Assembly (NCBI GenBank): GCA_017441825.1
Contig: JAFRVD010000060.1
Coordinates: 1-37,120 of the forward strand
Length of the DNA: 37,120 nucleotides
Direction: 5' to 3'
Origin: Lachnospiraceae bacterium
GTDB taxonomy: Bacteria > Bacillota > Clostridia > Lachnospirales > Lachnospiraceae
Of this stretch, positions 1 to 8,926 are shown one piece after another. The position numbers and the translations under genes were made by a program. The notes under the pieces were generated by a model, which saw only the letters and a program-made list of their open reading frames with translations, was not told the DNA's origin and made no database searches. The number at the start of each line of letters is the position of its first letter. Positions within the stretch are counted from its first letter, which is position 1.

Positions 1-380
1 CCCGAAGAGCCTCTTTGCTCTCTGCCTGAAGCCTGGCCTCCATAATTGACCTGAAATGACCTTCATAGTGGCCTACGTACCAAATGACTTCTTTGAGATG
101 CTCCCATACCATTTGTTCCAGAACGACCGCCCGGATGAAATGAGCCGAGCACGAACCAGTGTTGCTCCTGTAGTTGGCACAGACGAAATGATCTTGGCGT
201 GCTTCAAAGTAACTGGTGGTGCAGTATCGCATCTTCGCTTTACAGTCTGCACAGTAGACCAGTCCAGAGAACATATGGGATTTACCTGTCTTAGTTCGGC
301 GATGTCGTTGTAACCGAATCTCCTGAACCTTTTCGAACACCTCTGGATTGATAATAGCAAACAGGGCATACTCGTAAGAG
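1..380 (-). pseudogene. Large serine recombinase, internal fragment (recombinase/zinc-ribbon region)
   Basis: The minus-strand frame, read from about 380 leftward, stays open to the window edge. It contains INPEVFEKVQE, the hallmark stretch that joins the recombinase domain to the zinc-ribbon domain in large serine integrases of the Tn4451/TnpX type. It continues with FSGLVYCADCKAKMRY (first C-x2-C pair) and HFVCANYRSNTGSCSAHFIR (second cysteine group), then a helical segment rich in E and R. The catalytic N-terminal resolvase domain would have to lie to the right of position 380. That side holds repeat-rich DNA instead, followed by an unrelated permease gene, so the 5' part has been lost. 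The 3' end lies outside the window. These enzymes excise and integrate conjugative or mobilizable elements. I read this copy as a dead remnant. The family assignment is secure; the exact breakpoint is uncertain. Confidence 0.82.
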
Positions 381-394
381 TATGCAGATTTTCG

Positions 395-540
395 TCTGGA
401 ACCGTTATCACCTCGGCAACTGGCAAGCAGTGTACCGATGGACGGTTCCAGAACTTGGCGAGCAGTGTTCCGATCCGGATCGGAACCACTTTCGCCAAAT
501 CCGGCTCGTTGGGATAATCCCAAACCCGTATGATCGCACA
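395..540. repeat. Cluster of direct and inverted repeats, insertion-sequence end-like (possibly IS21 family)
   Basis: Two direct repeats match at 16 of 18 positions: GGCAAGCAGTGTACCGAT at 422-439 and GGCGAGCAGTGTTCCGAT at 457-474, 35 bp apart. TCTGGAACCGT at 395-405 is exactly inverted as ACGGTTCCAGA at 442-452. A perfect 20-bp palindrome occupies 467-486, and TTGGGATAATCCCAA at 509-523 is another dyad. Read on the minus strand, the cluster would begin with TGTGCGATCATAC at 540. Several repeats near a TG-starting terminus are typical of IS21-family ends, where the transposase binds. No istA/istB gene is present, so this would be a lone end. The family is an inference; the repeats are directly visible. 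Confidence 0.45.
455..498. repeat. 44-bp near-perfect dyad around a 20-bp palindrome
   Basis: TTGGCGA (455-461) pairs with TCGCCAA (492-498). AGT (464-466) pairs with ACT (488-490). The core palindrome GTTCCGATCCGGATCGGAAC fills 467-486. Twenty base pairs are interrupted only by small bulges. It could fold as a cruciform or RNA hairpin, or serve as a protein-binding site in the neighbouring repeat cluster. There is no T-run on either side, so it does not look like an intrinsic terminator. Confidence 0.7.
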
Positions 541-675
541 AGTGCGAGCTGCGCGTTTTTTACAAAACGCTTACAACAATAACGACATATTCTGTAAAAA
601 TGCTTGGAACCAGACCTCTCGCAAAAACCGATTCCCTGGCTTCAGGCATTTTTCTGTTTTTCGATATTGGATTCT
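541..675. other. Non-coding stretch downstream of the permease gene
   Basis: I see no credible gene here. GCGTTTT (553-559) and AAAACGC (564-570) form a short hairpin with a 4-base loop. Around 640 there is only a weak 4-bp stem near the permease stop codon, so no convincing terminator for the accessory operon is visible. The stretch is more A+T-rich than the genes on its right and fits the debris between a mobile-element scar and the operon end. Confidence 0.5.
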
Positions 676-1593
676 TTACCCGGCGCAGATCATATTCACA
701 ATGATGCCGGACAAGAATGAGAAAATCATCACGAAGACGATATAGAGCAGGAAGCGTTTCAGCCCCAGGACGATCTTGAGCGCTCCGAGATTTGTGATCT
801 TCGTTGCAGGCCCGGTGATCATAAATGCCGCCGCAGAGCCCATGCTCATCCCACTTGACAGCCATTCCTGCAAAAGAGGAATCGTCCCTCCTCCGCAGGC
901 ATAGAGAGGCACGCCGATCGTTGCCGCCATCAGCACGCCCCAGGCCTTGTTGCCGCCAAAGACATTTACCATCACGTCCTGAGGAACGTATCGCTGAAAC
1001 ATGGCGGACAGCAGGATGCCGATCAGGAAATACAGTCCTGTCGCTTTCACATTTCTCCAGAGATTCAGCAGATACCGGATCAGCAGATTCGGATGCGTAT
1101 CGTGGCTCTCCCGTTCTTCGAAACCTGTAAAGTTGAAAAAGTCTCTGTCCCGGTAAAACAGAAAGACGAGAAGACCGGCAGCGCAGCCGCACAGGAAACA
1201 GGTAATGATGCGAACAGCCAGTGCCGTCGTTCCCAGCGCTGCGCTGTAGATAATGAGCTGCGGATTTAAAAGGATCGACGCCATCATGAAGGCGGCCAGC
1301 CAGTCCTCCCGCATGCCCTGCTTCCGGAAGGATGCCGCAATCGGGATCGTCCCGTACATGCAAAGAGGCGAAGCAATGCCAAGGAGACACGCCGGGATAA
1401 TGCCAAGTAAGCCCCAGCGTGTCTTCTGCATTTTTACGAAAAGCCCGTGGATCCTATCCTTGGCAAAGACGGAAATCAGAGATCCGACCGCCATGCCGAT
1501 GACCCAGTACCAAAAGATCTGCCGAAGCTGAAGATCAAAATAGTAAAAGATGTAAACGAGCTCTCTTTGAAGGATCTGAAGTATGTTACTCAT
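676..1593 (-). CDS. Permease of the UPF0718/DUF318 (YraQ/ArsP-like) family
   Basis: This 305-residue, strongly hydrophobic protein has about eight membrane segments in two homologous halves. The first half carries SPLCMYGTIPIAAS (cysteine at 78). The second carries CGGGTIPLLQEW (cysteine at 233) followed by ITGPATKITNLGAL. The paired C-x-x-GTIP loops and the TGPATK stretch are typical of the DUF318 permease family, whose best known member, ArsP, exports organoarsenicals. The substrate here is unknown. The C-S-C arrangement of many family members is reduced to single cysteines. The start codon overlaps the end of the DUF362 gene by 8 bp, so the two are translationally linked. It is the last gene of the nine-gene redox operon. 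Membrane permease: high certainty. Arsenic transport: not supported by anything else here. Confidence 0.85.
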   Translation of the reverse strand: MSNILQILQRELVYIFYYFDLQLRQIFWYWVIGMAVGSLISVFAKDRIHGLFVKMQKTRWGLLGIIPACLLGIASPLCMYGTIPIAASFRKQGMREDWLAAFMMASILLNPQLIIYSAALGTTALAVRIITCFLCGCAAGLLVFLFYRDRDFFNFTGFEERESHDTHPNLLIRYLLNLWRNVKATGLYFLIGILLSAMFQRYVPQDVMVNVFGGNKAWGVLMAATIGVPLYACGGGTIPLLQEWLSSGMSMGSAAAFMITGPATKITNLGALKIVLGLKRFLLYIVFVMIFSFLSGIIVNMICAG

Positions 1594-2617
1594 CGATATC
1601 TATAAGCTGATAGGTACGGCTGCCGAGGCCGATCTCTTCCGCATGATCCAGCGTATGCAGACCATGCTGCCGTTCTATGCGGTTCATTAGTGCCGTGTTT
1701 CCTTCCGCCTGCGCCACAAGATCATAGCAGGCCTGGTCAAGAGCCACGGGATCCATCGAGGCCAGGATGCCGATATCGTGAATATCCGGCTCAGCTGGAT
1801 GGCCGTTACAGTCGCAGTCGATTGAAAGGCGGTTCATCACATTGATGTAAATGATATGCTCCACTCCTACATGATCCACGAATCCGTCCACCATCTCCGC
1901 CAGGGCTTCCAGCCAGGCATCCTGATCGGAATAAAAGATATTGCCACCGGTCTTGGTCCCGGCCGTATGCACAAGCGCCTTGCCTCTGGCAGATGATGCG
2001 CCGATGCCGACGTTTTTGATCGCTCCGCCGTAGCCGGCCATCTGGTGGCCTTTGTAATGGGACAGGATCACCCAATCGGTATAATTCTCCGAATGGCTTC
2101 CTACGATAATGTAAGTGAGCCTGTCGCCTCCGGTCACCGGCCATTCGACTTCGCCTTCTTCATCGAGAAGGTCAAAATCGGCAATGGCCGTAAACCCGTG
2201 ATCTTCGGCTACCTGTTTATGCATGGCAGAGCTGGAGCGGGATCCGCCATAAGCGGTATTACATTCCACGATCGTTCCGTCCAGGAGTTGCACGAGATCG
2301 CCGATCAGCTCCGGGCGGAGGTAATTGCTTGCAGGCGGTTCGCCTGTGGAGATTTTCACAGCAACAGGGCCGGTGGGCTCCCAGCCAAGCGCCTGATAGA
2401 TCGCAACCAGACCTTCTGCCGAGATGTCGGAAGTGAAATAAACGACCGGAGCATCAAGTCGCGGTTGTTCAGCCTGACTATTTTCCGGTTCCCCGATTTG
2501 CGAAGAGGTATTTTGTTCCGGCTGATGCACAGCTGTATTTGTATCGCCGGTACCGCAGGCCGAAAGAGTGAATATCAATACGGCTGCAAGCAAGACGACA
2601 AGTACTCTTTGTTTCAT
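1586..2617 (-). CDS. DUF362-domain lipoprotein
   Basis: The 343-residue protein starts with a lipoprotein signal peptide; the lipobox LSAC places the lipidated cysteine at residue 21. A Gln/Glu/Ser-rich linker follows, then a DUF362 domain marked by GYGGAIKNVGIGASSARGK and DIHDIGILASMDPVALDQA near the C-terminus. I chose the ATG at 2617 because it begins the signal peptide and follows a GGAAAGGA-like site. An in-frame ATG 66 bp upstream would bury the signal peptide. DUF362 is often found with ferredoxin domains, but this protein has no iron-sulfur cysteine motif. The start overlaps the DUF4405 stop (ATGA), and the end overlaps the permease start. A role in redox or metal handling outside the membrane is inferred from neighbours only. 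Confidence 0.82.
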   Translation of the reverse strand: MKQRVLVVLLAAVLIFTLSACGTGDTNTAVHQPEQNTSSQIGEPENSQAEQPRLDAPVVYFTSDISAEGLVAIYQALGWEPTGPVAVKISTGEPPASNYLRPELIGDLVQLLDGTIVECNTAYGGSRSSSAMHKQVAEDHGFTAIADFDLLDEEGEVEWPVTGGDRLTYIIVGSHSENYTDWVILSHYKGHQMAGYGGAIKNVGIGASSARGKALVHTAGTKTGGNIFYSDQDAWLEALAEMVDGFVDHVGVEHIIYINVMNRLSIDCDCNGHPAEPDIHDIGILASMDPVALDQACYDLVAQAEGNTALMNRIERQHGLHTLDHAEEIGLGSRTYQLIDIDE

Positions 2618-3279
2618 GATTTTCCCCGTCCTTTCCGAGCGCTCATTCTGATAAAAAATGCCTGGAGCAGCATCCCGATACATGCAAACAGCACGATGAT
2701 CGCCGCATAGTCCAGGAAGAACCTTGCCAGCGGCTCATCATAGTCGAAGAAGGCAAAAAGGATCCTATGCAGCATATAACCCGGAAGCTGCCTTGTAAAA
2801 AAGGCGATCGCCCCGTATACCGAGACAGCTGCGGCGATCAGAATCGCTGCAGCCCGTCCCCGTTTACTTTTGATCCTCTTCACCATCGGGAGCAGATGTG
2901 CCCCGGCATGGATGCTCATGAGCACCAGGCCCCAGTAGGCAAACATCAGATGGATCTCCCTTGCCGCCGCCGAGACACCGCCGACCGGAAGGAAGGTATA
3001 CAAATGCTTCGACATCAGGATCCCGCTCACCGGCTGGGCGATCATGATCAGAAGAAGCAAGACGTCCAGTATCGTCTGAAAGATGCGCAGCGCGGAATAC
3101 CGTCCTTTCGGAAGAGCCTTGTACCAACCCCTGTTCAGGATGTGATGACCTATAAACTGCACGAAGATCGCCGTTCCAATCACCTCATGAAAGGTCTCCC
3201 CAATTAGGGAATAGGCCATCAGGAGCAGCAGGAGTACGGTCATGACAATATCCGTTGTTTTGCGAAAGAACCTCTTCAT
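2614..3279 (-). CDS. DUF4405 histidine-rich integral membrane protein (cytochrome b-like)
   Basis: This is a 221-residue protein with about five membrane segments. Histidines cluster in FHEVIGT (31), GHHILN (45-46), REIHLMF (110) and SIHAGAHL (124 and 128), an arrangement expected for heme ligands in four-helix cytochrome b-like proteins such as DUF4405 members. I infer heme binding and transmembrane electron transfer. The start is ATG at 3279, inside a TGATG junction with the flavodoxin lipoprotein gene; GTG at 3282 is the alternative. The end overlaps the DUF362 lipoprotein start by 4 bp. Direct coupling to a secreted flavodoxin on one side and a DUF362 lipoprotein on the other suggests the three proteins work together at the membrane. 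Family: fairly sure. Electron-transfer role: inference. Confidence 0.78.
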   Translation of the reverse strand: MKRFFRKTTDIVMTVLLLLLMAYSLIGETFHEVIGTAIFVQFIGHHILNRGWYKALPKGRYSALRIFQTILDVLLLLIMIAQPVSGILMSKHLYTFLPVGGVSAAAREIHLMFAYWGLVLMSIHAGAHLLPMVKRIKSKRGRAAAILIAAAVSVYGAIAFFTRQLPGYMLHRILFAFFDYDEPLARFFLDYAAIIVLFACIGMLLQAFFIRMSARKGRGKS

Positions 3280-4022
3280 CACTTAAAACCGAGACCCGAA
3301 AGCCACTTGTCTGCCGTATCCGATACGCTGTCTTTCTTGTTCTGGCAGTCATTTCCACGGAACGCCTGACCGGTCAGCACCGTTGCATCCGGTACGGCGG
3401 AGGTGAGCTTTTTGTCGAACCCGGATAAGCCGCTTCCTTCGTGCGTGGAAAACGGCACCAGGCTCTTGCCCGCAAGATCGGCGTTCTCAAAGAACGTATA
3501 CATGATCATCGGCCAGTCGCCCCACCACACTGGAGCCCCGATGAAGATGGTATCGTACTGCGAAAGATCAGGCAGCTCGTCCTTGATCGCGGGACGGGCT
3601 TTTTCGTTCTGCTCCCTCTTTGCCACGTCGGTCAGTTCTGCGTAGGTATAGGGATAATCCGTCTCCGGCAGGATCTCAAACAGGTCCGCCCCGGTCTTTT
3701 CCGCGATCATCTTAGCAACGATGGCCGTGTTGCCCTCGTCGATGACACCGACCGTATACTGCTCCCCGGTGCGGGAGAAATAAACGACGAGGATCTTCGT
3801 ATCCGACGTCATCTGCCCCGCTGTCTCAGCCGGTTCGGATGTGTTCCCGGAGGAAGTACCCGGGGTCACCGGCTCGGAAGGTTCTGTCTCTGTGCCGGCA
3901 GGCGTTACCGTATTCTGCGTTTCTGCAGAGGATGTATTCGAGTTCATATTTGTGCCTGCCCCACAGCCACATAGGCTGATCACCATCAGCACGACAAGAA
4001 ACAGTGAAAAATATCTCCTCAT
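3279..4022 (-). CDS. Flavodoxin-domain lipoprotein
   Basis: A signal peptide ends in the lipobox SLCGC, with the lipidated cysteine at residue 20. A low-complexity Ser/Thr/Pro/Glu linker of about 50 residues follows. The flavodoxin domain starts near residue 75 with ILVVYFSRTGEQYTVG and continues with GNTAIVAKMIAEKTGADLFEI. GAPVWWGDWP near the middle is the second flavin-contacting loop, and STHEGSGLSG the third. This is the flavodoxin_4 type, which carries an insertion after the phosphate loop. Flavodoxins are normally cytoplasmic FMN electron carriers. Here the protein should be anchored on the outer face of the membrane. AGAGGA lies 5 nt before the ATG. The coding region touches the DUF4405 gene by one base. 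Confidence 0.88.
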   Translation of the reverse strand: MRRYFSLFLVVLMVISLCGCGAGTNMNSNTSSAETQNTVTPAGTETEPSEPVTPGTSSGNTSEPAETAGQMTSDTKILVVYFSRTGEQYTVGVIDEGNTAIVAKMIAEKTGADLFEILPETDYPYTYAELTDVAKREQNEKARPAIKDELPDLSQYDTIFIGAPVWWGDWPMIMYTFFENADLAGKSLVPFSTHEGSGLSGFDKKLTSAVPDATVLTGQAFRGNDCQNKKDSVSDTADKWLSGLGFK

Positions 4023-4031
4023 ATTGATCCT

Positions 4032-4874
4032 CTACTTTCTCTCGAAGCTCGGCCTCCATGCTGCAAATCCTGCGAGCTGGGCGTCGGTGCGGTGATAGTA
4101 TCTCTCGCCTCTGTCGAGCTTTGCGATCTCCGCCATCTCATCGTCTGTCAGCGTGAAGTCAAGAATGTCCAGATTGTCCTTGATATGTGCCACATTCTTG
4201 CTGCCGGGGATCACGACAAAGCCCATCTGGGTATGCCAGCGAAGAATGATCTGGGCAGGCGTCTTGCCGTACTTTTCTCCGAGCGCCGCAAAGACCGGCT
4301 CCTGAAGCAGACTCTTGTCGCCATGCCCCAGCGGATACCAGGCCATCAGACGGATCCCATACTTATCCAGCGTTTCACGAAGCTCCTTCTGAGTGAAATA
4401 AGGGTGTGCTTCCACCTGGATGAACTGTGGGATGATCTCCCAGGCAGCTTCCAACTTTGTCATGTATTTCCCTTCAAAGTTAGAGATGCCGATCGCTTTT
4501 GCTTTGCCTTCACGGTATGCCTTCTCGAGCTGCCGGTACCCGGCCAGCCAGTTGCCTGCTGGCTGGTGGATGTAAAGGAGATCCACATAGTCCACACCCA
4601 GGCGTTCCAGCGTCTCATCAACTGCGTTCTCGTTTTCATACTCGCTGGGCCAGAGTTTGGTGGAGAGGAAGATCTCCTCACGCGGGACACCGCTGTCACG
4701 CATTCCGCGTCCGACAGCCCGCTCATTGACGTAAGCGTTAGCAGTATCGACCAGACGATAACCCATTTTCAGCGCTTCTCTGACGCTGTTTTCAGCCTCC
4801 TTCGGGGAAAGCATGAAGGTGCCGATGCCCACGACCGGGCAGGTTTCGTTGTTGTTTAAAATAATGTTTTCCAT
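4032..4874 (-). CDS. Aldo/keto reductase, 2,5-diketo-D-gluconate reductase-like
   Basis: The 280-residue length matches the single-domain AKR family. The catalytic tetrad is complete: D43 and Y48 in LVDTANAY, K73 in STKLW, and H103 in YIHQP. The NADPH-binding end is present as VVIPGSKNVAHIKDNL. Such enzymes reduce small aldehydes and ketones with NADPH in the cytoplasm. AAGGAG stands 7 nt ahead of the ATG. The gene begins 14 nt after the second aldo/keto reductase gene and ends 9 nt before the flavodoxin lipoprotein gene, so it belongs to the same transcript. The true substrate cannot be read from sequence. Confidence 0.93.
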   Translation of the reverse strand: MENIILNNNETCPVVGIGTFMLSPKEAENSVREALKMGYRLVDTANAYVNERAVGRGMRDSGVPREEIFLSTKLWPSEYENENAVDETLERLGVDYVDLLYIHQPAGNWLAGYRQLEKAYREGKAKAIGISNFEGKYMTKLEAAWEIIPQFIQVEAHPYFTQKELRETLDKYGIRLMAWYPLGHGDKSLLQEPVFAALGEKYGKTPAQIILRWHTQMGFVVIPGSKNVAHIKDNLDILDFTLTDDEMAEIAKLDRGERYYHRTDAQLAGFAAWRPSFERK

Positions 4875-4888
4875 CTCAGTGCTCCTTC

Positions 4889-5956
4889 CTATGCTTCATA
4901 AACCTCAGCCGCTTTCAAAAGCGCTTCTTTTTCTTCTTCCGAAGCTGTTTTCATCAGTTCCTTCGGGCTGCCGAACCGCGCTTTTACGGACCCGTAAATG
5001 ATATCCTGCCAGCCGTCCCGGACCTTCATGCCGACACGGTTGTTATACAGTCCGATATAGTGGCGAATCCCCGGATTGGACGAGATGAGCCGGATTGGCC
5101 GTTTCGCATATATTTCCTCTGCAATGCCTTCGATGACAGCAGTTTCTTCTTCTGTCAGCGGCCGGAAATCCTCCATATAGGACACATTGTCTTTCATCTG
5201 CTGCATAGTGCTCATACCTGAGAGAACCACGAACACCTCGGGCTGACTGGCCGCGTAGCGGATCGCCCAGGAGGCAATGGATTTCTCGGTATCCAGCCCC
5301 TTCAAACGTTCTGTGTATTCCTCATCGAGATTAGCGAGCACACCGCCCTTGACAGGCTCCATGACGATCACTTTTCTTCCGTGCCGTACGATGGTCTCGT
5401 AGCAGGCGCGGATATCGATCCCTTCGTTCTGCATGTCCGCATAGTTCAGGATCACCTGGACATATTCGATGTCCGGCTGCTCGGAAAGGATCTGCTCAAG
5501 CACATCCGCCGTATCATGGAAGGAGATGCAGATATGCCGGATCCGGCCTTCCGCCTTCAGCTCTTTGAACTTTTCAAAAGCGCCGATTGCTTTCATCTTC
5601 TCATAATACTGGGCGGTCATGGCGTGCATCAGATAGTAGTCAAAATAGGATACGCCGGTCTTGTTCAGCTGTTCTGTCAGCAGTTTTTCGATATCAGATA
5701 TGGAATTCACCATCCAGGTGGGCAGCTTGTCAGTCAGTGTATAAGAGCTGCGCTCATGGCGCTTCACCAACGCTTCACGGATCGCTGTCTCGCTGTTTCC
5801 CATGTGATAAACATAAGAAGTGTCGAAATAAGTAAAGCCATGCGCGAGGAAATAGTCGACCATCTCTTTCAGCTCTTCCATATTGACCTTGCTGTAGTCA
5901 TTCGGGTCAGACTGAGGCAGTCGCATCAGTCCGAAGCCCAGCTTTTTCTGTGCCAT
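4889..5956 (-). CDS. Aldo/keto reductase lacking the C-terminal ferredoxin-like cysteines
   Basis: This 355-residue AKR begins MAQKKLGFGLMRLP, the usual start of the large clostridial AKR group. The tetrad is D45 and Y50 (YFDTSYVY), K77 (LTDK) and H111 (YLMH). I preferred the ATG at 5956 over the one at 5962 because GAAAGG then sits 9 nt away instead of 3. Members of this group usually end in a CxxCxxC...C iron-sulfur region. Here the corresponding region reads RPIRLISSNPGIRHYIG and holds no cysteines; the only cysteines in the protein are internal ones near 143 and 184. It therefore probably works without a cluster. It shares little with the AKR downstream, so the two are not a recent duplication. 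Confidence 0.9.
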   Translation of the reverse strand: MAQKKLGFGLMRLPQSDPNDYSKVNMEELKEMVDYFLAHGFTYFDTSYVYHMGNSETAIREALVKRHERSSYTLTDKLPTWMVNSISDIEKLLTEQLNKTGVSYFDYYLMHAMTAQYYEKMKAIGAFEKFKELKAEGRIRHICISFHDTADVLEQILSEQPDIEYVQVILNYADMQNEGIDIRACYETIVRHGRKVIVMEPVKGGVLANLDEEYTERLKGLDTEKSIASWAIRYAASQPEVFVVLSGMSTMQQMKDNVSYMEDFRPLTEEETAVIEGIAEEIYAKRPIRLISSNPGIRHYIGLYNNRVGMKVRDGWQDIIYGSVKARFGSPKELMKTASEEEKEALLKAAEVYEA

Positions 5957-5995
5957 ATTCATTTTCCTTTCTTCCTGAAACGCAGTATTCAGGTT

Positions 5996-6844
5996 TTATG
6001 CTCCAAGGGTATATGCCCCTGTCCGGATCGCGGCGATGGTCCCGCCATCGATCAGAAGGTCTGTGCCGTTGATGAACCCGGCATGTTCGCCCAGAAGGAA
6101 CGCACCTGCCTCCGCGATTTCATCAGAGGATCCAGTACGCATGGCGGCGGAAGCATCGATCATCTTCTGGTAGTTGTCGCCGGCAGCTGCGAATTCATCA
6201 TAGGCCAGCGGCGTCACGATGACGCCGGGAGACAGGGTATTGATCCTGGCGCGGCGTTCCTTCCAGGTCGTTGCGGCTGCCTTCTGCGCCTGCAGATGAT
6301 TGATCCGCTTGGCGATGATATACGCATATCCTGAATTCTGAAGAGCAGTTTCTTTGATATAGGGGATGTCCATCAGCTCATCAGTTGCTGCTTTCAGGAT
6401 CTGAAGCTCGACCTCATCCGGAAGACGCATCATGTAACCGGTCTGGCTGGAGATCACAAGTCCGGCTCCGCCTGCAGCCATCACCTTGCCGAAGGCGTCC
6501 AGGGCATATCCTGTCCCTACGCCGTCCAGCCTCATGATGTGCTCGGGGCGCGACTGATTGGGGGAAGCGCCAGCGGTATCGATGAAGTACTTCACAGGAC
6601 CAAGAGAGGCCGCCTTTTTCGCAAAGGCTTCCACGGATTCCTTTTCCATCGCATTGACCACGAAGGTCTCCACCGTATAGCCGCTGTAGCGGAGCTCATT
6701 CGCCGTGCGTTCCAGATTCTTTTCGCTGATGTCGCCCAACAGGACGATGCGACCTGCCGCAAAGCGGCGGGCAATGGCGGTCCCCATGCTTCCCGCGCCT
6801 AAGAGCGCGATCACTTCCTTGTTTTCATTGCGGTCAAAAATCAT
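5996..6844 (-). CDS. Short-chain dehydrogenase/reductase (SDR)
   Basis: The protein has 282 residues. An N-terminal nucleotide-binding loop GAGSMG (16-21) follows the first strand VIALL. The catalytic residues appear as Ser132/133 in VISSQTG and the YxxxK pair Tyr175/Lys179 in SGYAYIIAKR. The sequence then shows RINTLSPGVIVTPLA and a C-terminal GFINGTDLLIDGG, both normal in SDRs. The enzyme should carry out NAD(P)-dependent alcohol/carbonyl conversion in the cytoplasm. AAAGGAG lies 8 nt before the ATG. It sits 39 nt upstream of the second AKR in the same transcript, giving the locus three carbonyl-type oxidoreductases in a row. Confidence 0.92.
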   Translation of the reverse strand: MIFDRNENKEVIALLGAGSMGTAIARRFAAGRIVLLGDISEKNLERTANELRYSGYTVETFVVNAMEKESVEAFAKKAASLGPVKYFIDTAGASPNQSRPEHIMRLDGVGTGYALDAFGKVMAAGGAGLVISSQTGYMMRLPDEVELQILKAATDELMDIPYIKETALQNSGYAYIIAKRINHLQAQKAAATTWKERRARINTLSPGVIVTPLAYDEFAAAGDNYQKMIDASAAMRTGSSDEIAEAGAFLLGEHAGFINGTDLLIDGGTIAAIRTGAYTLGA

Positions 6845-6872
6845 GATGATTTCTCCTTTCGATTGTTTTGGA

Positions 6873-7376
6873 TCAGTTGGTCATGTACCATTCGCCGTCG
6901 ATCCGGACAAGATGCGCTGTAACGTTGAAGGGCCAGGAGCCCTGCGCACCATAAGCATTTGCGGTCAGGACCACGCGGCAGGTCAATGTGGCGTCGTCGC
7001 CGTCGATCACTACCTTTGCATCCTTCATGGTGTAGCTCTGATAGTCCAGTCTGCCATCCCGGATATCCGCAAAATACTCGTCTTTGGTCTGTGTCTTTCC
7101 GGACATATGGGTGAAAGTCATCCCATCCAGAATGATCTCATCCAGGACATCGATATCCTTGTCGATCATCGCCTGCTGCACTGCCTGGTATCGAGCGATC
7201 ACACGCTGTTCATCCATTTCTTCTTCCTCCGTTTCCTGCTGCTGCGATGCGGTCTTCATATCAAATCCGCTCTGATTCGCTGCTTGTGAGCATCCGCTCA
7301 GGATCACAACGATACACAAGATCAGCAGGATCATTCCCGTCATAGAACCGGCCGGTTCTCTTTGTTTTCTGCACAT
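6873..7376 (-). CDS. Lipoprotein with NTF2/SnoaL-like domain
   Basis: The 167-residue protein begins with positive residues and a hydrophobic stretch ending at the lipobox VILSGC, with the cysteine at 29. A charged linker follows. The domain from about residue 57 (VIARYQAVQQAMIDKDIDVLDEIILDGMTFTHMSGKTQTKDEYF) has the helix-strand pattern of the NTF2/SnoaL/DUF4440 fold and ends VRIDGEWYMTN. Such small cone-shaped domains bind ligands or act as isomerase-like enzymes. No particular function can be assigned. AAGGAA precedes the ATG by 8 nt. It is the third lipoprotein of the operon and starts 12 nt after the flavodoxin gene. Confidence 0.8.
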   Translation of the reverse strand: MCRKQREPAGSMTGMILLILCIVVILSGCSQAANQSGFDMKTASQQQETEEEEMDEQRVIARYQAVQQAMIDKDIDVLDEIILDGMTFTHMSGKTQTKDEYFADIRDGRLDYQSYTMKDAKVVIDGDDATLTCRVVLTANAYGAQGSWPFNVTAHLVRIDGEWYMTN

Positions 7377-7388
7377 AACGGTTGTTCC

Positions 7389-7910
7389 TTACAGCAGCCC
7401 GTTTGCCTTCAGCCAGCGCCTGACGCTCTCGCCGGAATTTGCCGCATTGCTGCCGGTGATGGGAAGTCCTTTTCTGACCTCAGCGCTGGGAGCAAGCTTT
7501 TTGATGCCCTTTTCGCTTCCACCCATGCCGCTTCCTTCATTTGTGCAGAGGGGAAGAATCGTCTTGCCCGTGAAGTCGTAACGCTCCAGGAAGGTTGCGA
7601 CGGCCATTGGGAAGGTGCCCCAGTAATTCGGATAGGCCAGGACGATCGTGTCGTACTCGTCAATACTGTCAAGGTAATTTGTAAGCTCCGGCCTGACCTG
7701 CTCACGGAGATCTTTCTTCGCCTCTTCGATACAGGTCATGTAGACCGGGGAATAGGGATTCTTCATCTCGATCTTGAAGCTGTCTGCTTCGATCATATCT
7801 TTCATGATACCCGCAACGATCTCGGTGTTTCCCACCTTGACGTAACGCATCGCACCGGCGAAGTAGTTCTCATCTGCCCGGGAGAAGAAAGCGATCAATG
7901 TCTTAGCCAT
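7389..7910 (-). CDS. Cytoplasmic flavodoxin
   Basis: This 173-residue flavodoxin is of the flavodoxin_4 type and has no signal peptide. It starts MAKTLIAFFSRADENYFAG, contains GNTEIVAGIMKDM after the insertion, YPNYWGTFPMAV as the second flavin loop and TNEGSGMGGSEKG as the third. The phosphate loop is unusual (SRADENY), as in the lipoprotein paralogue at 3279-4022, and the two share the same layout throughout. It is the first gene of the operon. GGAGG lies 8 nt upstream of the ATG, just below the LysR-controlled promoter. It likely transfers electrons to or from the reductases that follow. Confidence 0.9.
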   Translation of the reverse strand: MAKTLIAFFSRADENYFAGAMRYVKVGNTEIVAGIMKDMIEADSFKIEMKNPYSPVYMTCIEEAKKDLREQVRPELTNYLDSIDEYDTIVLAYPNYWGTFPMAVATFLERYDFTGKTILPLCTNEGSGMGGSEKGIKKLAPSAEVRKGLPITGSNAANSGESVRRWLKANGLL

Positions 7911-7954
7911 GTTTATGTCCTCCGTTTTGTGTTCTGGTTTTGTTTTCTGGCCTT

Positions 7955-7984
7955 ATTATATGATCTTCCTATTGCAAAGTCCAA
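7955..7984 (-). promoter_or_regulatory. Promoter of the redox operon
   Basis: On the minus strand, TTGGAC (7979-7984) and TATAAT (7955-7960) are separated by 18 bp. The predicted start is about 35-40 nt above the flavodoxin ATG. The -35 element overlaps the LysR-type dyad, so a bound regulator would contact RNA polymerase directly. Confidence 0.75.
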
Positions 7985-7985
7985 T
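7971..7985. promoter_or_regulatory. LysR-type box (ATTG-N7-CAAT)
   Basis: ATTGCAAAGTCCAAT is a 15-bp dyad with perfect 4-bp arms and the T-N11-A form typical of LysR-family recognition sites. It lies between two divergent promoters and touches both -35 hexamers. I infer that it is the main binding site of the adjacent LysR protein, giving autoregulation plus control of the operon. Confidence 0.65.
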
Positions 7986-8001
7986 CGAAAAGGTATATAA
8001 T
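7972..8001 (+). promoter_or_regulatory. Promoter of the lysR gene
   Basis: TTGCAA (7972-7977) and TATAAT (7996-8001) are spaced by 18 bp. The predicted start lies about 30 nt before the lysR ATG, and AGAGG is 10 nt ahead of it. The -35 lies inside the LysR-type dyad. Confidence 0.7.
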
Positions 8002-8038
8002 TGATTTAAGAATTAAATAGCAAAGAGGCGATGTTTCC

Positions 8039-8926
8039 ATGACGACAAAGCAGATCGATTACTGTATAGAACTGGCACATACGCTGAACTTCAGCCGTGC
8101 CGCTGAGAACCAGTTTGTGAGCCAGCCGACCCTGACCTACCAGATCAGGCTTCTGGAGGAAGAGGTGGGCTTTGCGATATTTGAACGAAGCGGAAAAGGT
8201 GCTTCCCTGACACCGGCCGGTGCGCAGTTCGTAGGATTCCTTACCAATATGCGCGAGGATCTGAAACGTGCCATCGAACAGGGGCAGAATTTCAGTGCCA
8301 AATACAAGGACAGCATTTCCATCAGCATGCCGGTCCGGCAGGCCGTGTACTTCCTTCCGGAAGCCATGCGCCTGTTTGGACAGTCACATCCGGATGTACA
8401 GATCATTCCCAAGTTTCAATATGAAAACGGAATGGACGATTTCCTGAAAGAAGAGACCGATATTCTCTTTACGCTGAAGGAACTGACAAAGCAGATCCCC
8501 AGCATCCATGTTCAAGATCTGTTTGAGAGTCATATCTATCTGATCGCGCAAAGGGCTGATTCGCTGGCCGAAAAAAATCTGGTCACAGATGCAGATCTGT
8601 ACGGACGGACGCTCATGGTGGGCGGCGGTTCTCCGCCGGCCCTGCGTGCCGTTCAGCACCGGCTGATCGCCAGCGGGAAGATCAATTACTTCAACAGTGC
8701 CGATCACGACACGACTCTTACCAATGTGGCGGCAGGACGCGGCGTCTGCCTTGCCCCCGGTTTCTTAAATGACCACAGCGGCCAGTTTGCCTGGATCCCC
8801 TTCGACTGCAGCGAGAGTTTCTCCTGTGTACTCTGTACCCATAAGGATGACCACCGGGACTCCCTGCGTACATTCATCGATCTTCTGAAAAAGCTGTACA
8901 AGGATGCAGTAGCATTTCCCCTATAA
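8039..8926 (+). CDS. LysR-family transcriptional regulator
   Basis: The 295-residue length is normal for the family. The N-terminal winged helix-turn-helix spans about residues 1-60 and shows TLNFSRAAENQFVSQPTLTYQIRLLEEEVGFAIFERSGKGASLTPAG, the standard LysR pattern. The rest is a periplasmic-binding-protein-like effector domain with strand-rich segments, for example SISISMPVRQAVYFLPEAMRLF. It is transcribed away from the nine-gene operon across a 127-bp region with overlapping promoters. It is therefore the likely regulator of that operon, responding to a small molecule or redox cue that cannot be identified here. It ends against the convergent walJ gene with a shared hairpin terminator. Confidence 0.95.
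   Translation: MTTKQIDYCIELAHTLNFSRAAENQFVSQPTLTYQIRLLEEEVGFAIFERSGKGASLTPAGAQFVGFLTNMREDLKRAIEQGQNFSAKYKDSISISMPVRQAVYFLPEAMRLFGQSHPDVQIIPKFQYENGMDDFLKEETDILFTLKELTKQIPSIHVQDLFESHIYLIAQRADSLAEKNLVTDADLYGRTLMVGGGSPPALRAVQHRLIASGKINYFNSADHDTTLTNVAAGRGVCLAPGFLNDHSGQFAWIPFDCSESFSCVLCTHKDDHRDSLRTFIDLLKKLYKDAVAFPL

Follow-up and report, generated by a model that had tools for sequence, protein, structure and literature searches.

Extracytosolic flavodoxins bear signs of flavinylation, and flavinylation of Flavodoxin_4 proteins has been published; according to the retrieved part of the same study, heme b binding was shown for a member of the DUF4405 family, which co-occurs with Flavodoxin_4 (Huang et al. 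2024, PMC11334425). In LarA, as described in the accessible sections of PMC11770544, a lysine tethers the cofactor, a histidine ligates its nickel and His174 is catalytic; the nickel-pincer nucleotide has a mass of 449 Da (PMC12611868). The same sections place DUF362 and DUF2088 in one Pfam clan, CL0471, and use DUF362 as the outgroup of LarA, and the clan appears as the DUF362-like superfamily in the available text of PMC7955657; the clan link of DUF362 to LarA is already known. DUF362-CBM9-dockerin proteins of gut cellulose degraders were found in an independent survey (PMC5742341, in the excerpt at hand). Here we analyze a 37,120-nucleotide stretch of DNA from a Lachnospiraceae bacterium (GenBank assembly GCA_017441825.1, contig JAFRVD010000060.1, positions 1 to 37,120, forward strand), referred to as the window, in which nine minus-strand open reading frames at 676-7910 encode a cytosolic Flavodoxin_4 protein (Fld), a DUF4440 lipoprotein, an SDR oxidoreductase, two aldo-keto reductases (AKRs), an exported Flavodoxin_4 lipoprotein (FldL), a DUF4405 membrane protein, a DUF362 lipoprotein and an ArsP-type permease, and a LysR-type regulator lies divergently on the plus strand at 8039-8926. 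With confidence only slightly above even, we interpret this locus as an accessory, LysR-linked redox operon in which electrons would run from DUF4405 to FldL at the cell surface and on to a surface DUF362 protein of predicted LarA-type fold, served by ArsP, with the carbonyl reductases as cytosolic partners.

Four histidines of the DUF4405 protein are kept in all aligned sequences that have a residue at the position (H32 in 52/52, H46 in 54/54, H125 and H129 in 56/56 each), and the window protein is probably a cytochrome b. A preliminary description of the window, made from the letters alone, had proposed it as a possible heme b protein, in agreement with the heme b bound by another member of the family (PMC11334425, retrieved part). 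DUF4405 would take electrons at the membrane and pass them to FldL, which would in turn reduce DUF362, the latter acting as terminal redox enzyme or carrier and not as an ordinary racemase. In relatives, natural fusions are found at both steps of this path. Using clean domain models, 25 fused frames were obtained in all, including 12 DUF4405-Flavodoxin_4 frames from ten separate places (L046, L123 and L197 count as a single place, and the DUF4405 scores of L057 and L062 are weak), 10 Flavodoxin_4-DUF362 frames in 8 loci, one DUF4405-DUF362 frame (L178) and one Flavodoxin_4-AKR frame (L192). Pfam searches on 10 of the 25 recovered both domains in 10/10, the DUF4405 domain of L057 (25.2 bits) being just below cut-off. 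A DUF362-ArsP frame in L119 was rejected as a fusion and is likely a frameshift. Among four Flavodoxin_4-DUF362 frames that were checked, those of L190 and L194 carry three SLH domains each and that of L205 carries choline-binding repeats, and the presence of such domains on the same chain indicates that the pair works outside the cell. In two frames (L044:7925-10153 and L111:10315-12543) an FGE-sulfatase domain is inserted between DUF4405 and Flavodoxin_4. The route via flavodoxin to DUF362 put forward in the preliminary description is thereby backed; its broader proposal, an electron path across the membrane, is supported in part, by the heme b precedent and the fusions, and the feeding by NAD(P)H enzymes and a fixed nine-gene pathway, both considered below, are not supported.

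The association of these genes was followed in loci picked by DUF362 similarity, namely a family set with 36 of the top 37 DUF362 places after the window's own and a named set with the best 80 of at least 572 loci, and domains were counted with DUF362 models free of fused flavodoxin domains. The 20 control stretches came from genomes of the same family, were hand-picked mostly near hits of a LarE search and not at random, and suit the family set but not the named set. Flavodoxin_4 was found in 21/36 and 52/80 of the DUF362 loci, DUF4405 in 13/36 and 31/80, AKR in 25/36 and 45/80, and ArsP anywhere on the stretch in 34/36 and 64/80, as compared to 0/20 controls for each of the four. ArsP directly followed DUF362 in 31/36 and 50/77 loci, three named loci ending too early for this count. 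At the level of genomes, DUF362 was matched in 266 of 397 from the family and DUF4405 in 30 of 145, the window's own included in both cases, and many of the DUF362 matches are other types of this protein. A DUF362 domain also lies within a 1251-residue frame on two viral contigs, L314 (167 kb) and L315 (223 kb).

The window order Flavodoxin_4, DUF4405, DUF362, ArsP recurs in L126, L138, L139 and L200. Near matches are L138, with Fld-AKR-FldL-DUF4405-DUF362-ArsP, and L037, where a LysR gene is divergent from DUF4440-AKR-Fld-CMD-SDR-FldL-DUF4405 (CMD and SDR assigned by eye). On a closed plasmid of Selenomonas ruminantium the genes for AKR, SDR, CMD, a flavodoxin lipoprotein, DUF362, a DUF4405-like protein and a flavodoxin follow one another, with two small genes interspersed; the DUF4405-like protein is unnamed by Pfam and scores 104 bits with the DUF4405 model built here. 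Neither the 116 DUF362 loci (36 + 80) nor 34 DUF4405 loci showed the full nine-gene order. The expected conservation of gene order in other genomes is therefore confined to parts that recur together, and a fixed nine-gene pathway is not upheld. A search of the open-licence PubMed Central (PMC) literature returned nothing on flavodoxin, aldo keto reductase, carboxymuconolactone decarboxylase and LysR together.

The DUF362 lipoprotein is predicted to have a LarA-type fold. An AlphaFold model made from an alignment of 30 DUF362 proteins had a mean pLDDT of 82.7 and, in Foldseek, 15/15 PDB chains matched at E <= 0.001 were titled lactate/malate racemase or LarA-like (E 3.2e-5 to 9.3e-4), with TM-scores of only 0.32-0.42. 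The 16th match was 4nar, an unnamed Thermotoga protein at E 1.1e-3, and the next had E 0.12. Comparison with eleven LarA proteins by hhalign (L220, at 14% identity and probably in the wrong frame, was excluded) gave E 9.5e-5 and probability 59 over 75 columns, and aligned H213, K223 and H239 of DUF362 with H174, K184 and H200 of LarA. In the 30 aligned DUF362 sequences K223 and H239 are invariant and H213 is kept in at least 90%. R75 and H108 of LarA lie outside the hhalign block, and equivalents were not seen by eye in DUF362, which carries a CDC motif. LarA-type models gave weak matches on relatives; the Lar_N profile remained below cut-off for the window protein and was over it for some relatives (for example G035, 23.9 versus 23.3 bits). 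A sequence-profile search of the PDB with DUF362 yielded nothing real. The examined DUF362 proteins of the Fe-S and cytosolic kinds also have the spacing H-x9-K-x15-H. The preliminary description had listed the DUF362 lipoprotein; it contained neither its LarA-type fold, nor its pairing with ArsP, nor the insertion context of the locus.

That the exported DUF362 carries a nickel-pincer cofactor is possible, at low probability; the aligned site residues and the weak LarA-type matches on relatives speak in its favor. Dependence on the nickel-pincer nucleotide was considered by co-occurrence and set aside, as LarC is about equally common with and without a strong DUF362 match (larC in 32 of 41 genomes with a DUF362 match at ~50% identity or more versus 27 of 39 lacking a strong one), which is no proof, the genome groups being defined by us and at most five candidates being scored per genome, so that some DUF362 may be missed. 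Six genomes that are 97-99% complete (G424, G182, G174, G438, G288 and G249) encode an exported DUF362, yet yielded neither a LarC match nor a LarE match above cut-off; G079 was removed from this group, its DUF362 being cytosolic at the place examined. In four genomes a cytosolic DUF362 with two ferredoxin-type cysteine motifs stands beside larC and larE (Table 1). This points to a nickel-pincer connection of the Fe-S DUF362 family, which is only a lead because DUF362 was present in 0/20 further larC loci (within ~5 kb). In 3/20 larC loci, AKRs with ferredoxin-type cysteine motifs were observed less than 1 kb from larC (L304:2877-4118, L294:3819-5003 and L292:6323-7483). The open-licence PMC literature gave no report joining nickel-pincer and lipoprotein and, in the portions retrieved, no link between DUF362 and flavodoxin; its lone match, PMC10892978, concerns DUF3623 only, as does the retrieved part of PMC12423673, which was discarded as a DUF362 source.

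The ArsP permease goes with the exported form of DUF362. For 112 exported DUF362 proteins, ArsP was adjacent in 74, within 5 kb in 21 more and absent in 17, and for 16 classed as cytosolic it was absent in 12, near in 2 and adjacent in 2, both adjacent cases being doubtful (L119 is frameshifted and L199 is ended by a contig edge). With all rows kept, adjacency differed between exported and cytosolic DUF362 with a Fisher p of 5.8e-5, in a count from which duplicates with identical domains were removed along with eight domains at contig edges, that calls export by a simple hydrophobicity rule and whose cytosolic loci were mostly hand-fetched and not a random draw. Twelve loci taken for cytosolic DUF362, one of which (L286) is classed as exported by that rule, showed ArsP, DUF4405 and AKR in 0 and Flavodoxin_4 in 1. 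A separate search found ArsP next to 3/3 exported DUF362 (L316, L321 and L322, the ArsP of L322 being split over two frames) and within ~1.5 kb of 0/3 cytosolic ones (L317, L318 and L320). Exported DUF362 with adjacent ArsP also occurs in loci whose titles name Acidaminococcus, Spirochaetaceae and Synergistales. Two Tat-type DUF362 proteins, recognized by eye in Selenomonas and Parabacteroides, had no ArsP match on stretches of 10.9 and 14.9 kb, and further Tat-type proteins appeared neither in a phylum search (matches in 5/299 genomes at E <= 1e-80, own included) nor in one class (matches in 1/22). An ECF transporter S component (PF12822) adjoins DUF362 in places, for example at L157:4611-5180, and in some loci separates DUF362 from ArsP; its vitamin is not named by any NCBIfam model that passes the cut-off.

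We propose that ArsP may transport the cofactor, the metal, or the substrate or product of the exported DUF362. A bolder version, which we consider improbable, would make DUF362 proteins a second, redox branch of the LarA fold, with reductases that draw electrons from ferredoxin domains of their own in the cytosolic form or from flavodoxin in the exported form and a nickel-pincer-type or related metal-nucleotide cofactor at the Lys/His site; ArsP would export this cofactor or its metal where DUF362 leaves the cell unfolded via Sec, there being no ArsP nearby where it seems to leave folded via Tat (n = 2).

Members of the ArsP family export methylarsenite. The permease and the CDC motif could accordingly be read in terms of metal or metalloid detoxification, with ArsP expelling a thiophilic metal or organo-metalloid that the surface DUF362, through its conserved CDC motif and His/Lys/His site, would bind or reduce with electrons from DUF4405 and FldL. 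We regard this as unlikely. Besides the family membership in ArsP_1, it draws on two conserved cysteines of ArsP (C78 in 93/94 and C233 in 95/96 sequences), on weak similarity to the models of the Cu/Zn exporter SO_0444 and of SaoE, and on a Roseburia plasmid that has a cytosolic DUF362 less than 5 kb from a heavy-metal P-type ATPase and a ZIP transporter. The NCBIfam equivalog cut-offs of these models are missed by the window ArsP (105 versus 300 and 68 versus 325 bits), and arsenic genes were not noticed among the locus rows, where most neighbors carry no annotation and no dedicated search for such genes was made. Judged by its 61-82% identity to 31 relatives, the window ArsP belongs to a tight subfamily of its own, and a fold search with it gave no PDB match at E <= 0.001, the best being CNT nucleoside transporters at E 0.06. 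Open-licence PMC papers retrieved for ArsP, among the 15 of 85 listed, were off topic.

AKR and SDR enzymes carry out NAD(P)H-dependent carbonyl reduction. The earlier suggestion that such enzymes feed the electron path from inside is not supported, as no link of AKR or SDR to the membrane was found save one lipoprotein frame, dockerin-Flavodoxin_4-AKR at L192:13688-15097, which is ended by the contig edge. Fld, both AKRs and the SDR may rather be co-expressed cytosolic reductases, partners in regulation, whose most likely targets would be reactive carbonyls or quinones that the same stress gives rise to. Alternatively, the whole set could be an electrophile and quinone stress operon in which carbonyls and quinones are detoxified in the cytosol by the reductases and flavodoxins, the exported parts reduce quinones or other electrophiles at the surface and DUF362-ArsP is a separate cassette riding along. 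The recurrence nearby of AKR, SDR, FMN_red, flavin reductase and cupin genes is in line with this, as are the 23/116 loci (some on short stretches) that have DUF362 and ArsP without a match to Flavodoxin_4, DUF4405 or AKR; since the Flavodoxin_4-DUF362 and DUF4405-DUF362 fusions tie the cassette to the electron path, we find this alternative rather unlikely.

Several observations weigh against the DUF4405-FldL-DUF362 path that we prefer. FldL lacks a flavinylation motif and the operon block has no apbE, the one apbE found in the genome being on another contig, so that retention of flavin mononucleotide outside the cell is left unexplained, and nothing was found that would donate electrons to DUF4405. 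The 23 loci just mentioned mean that the DUF362-ArsP pair does not need Flavodoxin_4, DUF4405 or AKR nearby, and conversely 17 of the 112 exported DUF362 proteins have no ArsP within 5 kb. The TM-scores to LarA are low. Finally, DUF362 similarity was the basis on which loci were selected, and four places or more were seen twice (L151/L100, L155/L105, L175/L109 and L197/L123). With respect to the flavin, apbE was present in 3/150 loci, and a rough pattern placed a flavinylation-like motif in 26/82 lipoprotein-type Flavodoxin_4 regions, the lipobox pattern behind these 82 missing some lipoproteins, the window FldL among them. Lacking the motif like most lipoprotein Flavodoxin_4 counted, FldL would at best be a non-covalent flavodoxin variant.

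The locus is accessory and probably acquired, because it is missing at this site in ten genus mates with a conserved flank. The comparison covered the stretch around this flank in ten of 14 other genomes of the genus: coaE and an MBL gene occur together in 10/10, polA also in 9, and an EYNPFHNGH-type gene start is seen on the flank in six stretches and the body of this gene in a seventh. By tblastn, none of the nine operon genes nor LysR was found on any of the ten stretches, the absence being weak for L271 and L274, which stop 0.6 and 1.3 kb beyond MBL. A DUF4405 search gave a strong match in no other of 15 genus genomes and a weak match in two. On the other side of the operon the window begins at the contig end, and nucleotides 3-541, on the operon strand, encode a zinc-ribbon piece of a serine recombinase. 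A chance assembly of genes gathered by transfer, with no joint role, would fit the accessory nature of the locus, the recombinase piece alongside and the full order not being seen elsewhere; given the enrichment over the controls, the gene overlaps and the fusions, we judge it very improbable.

Spacings between successive operon genes are 12, 28, 33, 14, 9, -4, -70 and -8 nucleotides. Nine co-directional genes with overlaps, three in number, and a divergent LysR gene are thus present as first described, with a largest gap of 33 and not 39 nucleotides. The -70 overlap is a product of choosing the first ATG, the mechanical DUF362 frame running up to nucleotide 2683; the lipoprotein signal begins at codon 23 (nucleotide 2617), which leaves a 4-nucleotide overlap with the DUF4405 stop. 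Families were assigned by Pfam and NCBIfam searches and lipoboxes were judged by eye, visible in DUF4440, FldL and DUF362, which agrees with the three lipoproteins reported initially. Of all promoter-like matches in the region, the best two lie in the 128-nucleotide gap between Fld and LysR, where they overlap and point in opposite directions (7983-7955 on the minus and 7972-8001 on the plus strand, 10/12 consensus positions each); across the region, such matches are no commoner than in shuffles (6 versus 6.3). The LysR of L037, likewise divergent from a similar gene set, is 57% identical to that of the window. The nine genes may be co-transcribed, and the divergent position and the promoter-like sites make LysR a candidate for their control. 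Rfam at gathering scores gave one tRNA and no riboswitch.

Table 1. Positions of the window features and of Fe-S DUF362 genes located beside larC/larE in other genomes
Feature	Position	Strand	Basis
Serine recombinase, C-terminal piece, outside operon	3..541	-	PF13408 E 1.7e-14
ArsP_1-family permease, DUF362-associated subfamily	676..1593	-	PF03773 E 9.9e-41
DUF362 lipoprotein, predicted LarA-type fold	1586..2617, likely start nt 2617	-	PF04015; AlphaFold + Foldseek
DUF4405 membrane protein, probable cytochrome b, GTG start	2614..3282	-	PF14358 over cut-off
FldL, exported Flavodoxin_4 lipoprotein	3279..4022	-	PF12682 E 1.5e-29; lipobox by eye
Aldo-keto reductase a, DkgA-like	4032..4874	-	PF00248; NCBIfam DkgA 229 bits, below 425 cut-off
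Aldo-keto reductase b	4889..5962	-	PF00248
SDR oxidoreductase, PRK06940 subfamily	5996..6844	-	NF005395 303.5 bits (cut-off 280); YxxxK motif
DUF4440/SnoaL (NTF2-like) lipoprotein	6873..7376	-	PF14534 E 2.4e-22; lipobox by eye
Fld, cytosolic Flavodoxin_4	7389..7910	-	PF12682 E 3.2e-21; no signal peptide by eye
Overlapping divergent promoter-like sites, Fld/LysR gap	7955..8001	both	consensus match only
LysR-type regulator, divergent	8039..8926	+	PF00126 + PF03466 (HTH + substrate domains)
Fe-S DUF362 beside larC/larE	L259:4683-5789		
Fe-S DUF362 beside larC/larE	L263:3092-4216		
Fe-S DUF362 beside larC/larE	L277:7110-8345		
Fe-S DUF362 beside larC/larE	L278:6702-7826		

With these data DUF362, a widespread and uncharacterized family, gains a cofactor-like site, candidate electron donors and a partner transporter. 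If our interpretation is true, surface electron delivery by flavin and heme in gut and rumen Clostridia would be extended to a defined terminal protein.

In comparison with known systems, the permease shares its Pfam family with the ArsP_1 permeases, that is the methylarsenite exporter ArsP, the Cu/Zn exporter SO_0444 and SaoE, and differs in falling below the SO_0444 and SaoE cut-offs, in forming a tight subfamily and in its lack of a PDB match at the threshold used. The DUF362-CBM9-dockerin proteins resemble the window protein in that DUF362 is sited outside the cell; they differ by their link to carbohydrate binding, and the available excerpt does not mention a flavodoxin, cytochrome or permease (PMC5742341). 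With the LarA superfamily, as treated in the accessible parts of PMC11770544 and PMC12611868, DUF362 has in common the predicted fold, clan CL0471 and the equivalents of H174, K184 and H200. The window protein, however, is exported, shows no correlation with larC, carries a CDC motif, has no R75 and H108 equivalents visible by eye, and is associated with electron carriers, for which a racemase has no use. As to the clusters of Huang et al. 2024 (PMC11334425), the window block has no apbE and its FldL no flavinylation motif, and it adds ArsP, two AKRs, SDR, DUF4440 and DUF362, the last unmentioned in the retrieved part of that study; what both share is a DUF4405 protein with conserved histidines beside an exported Flavodoxin_4.

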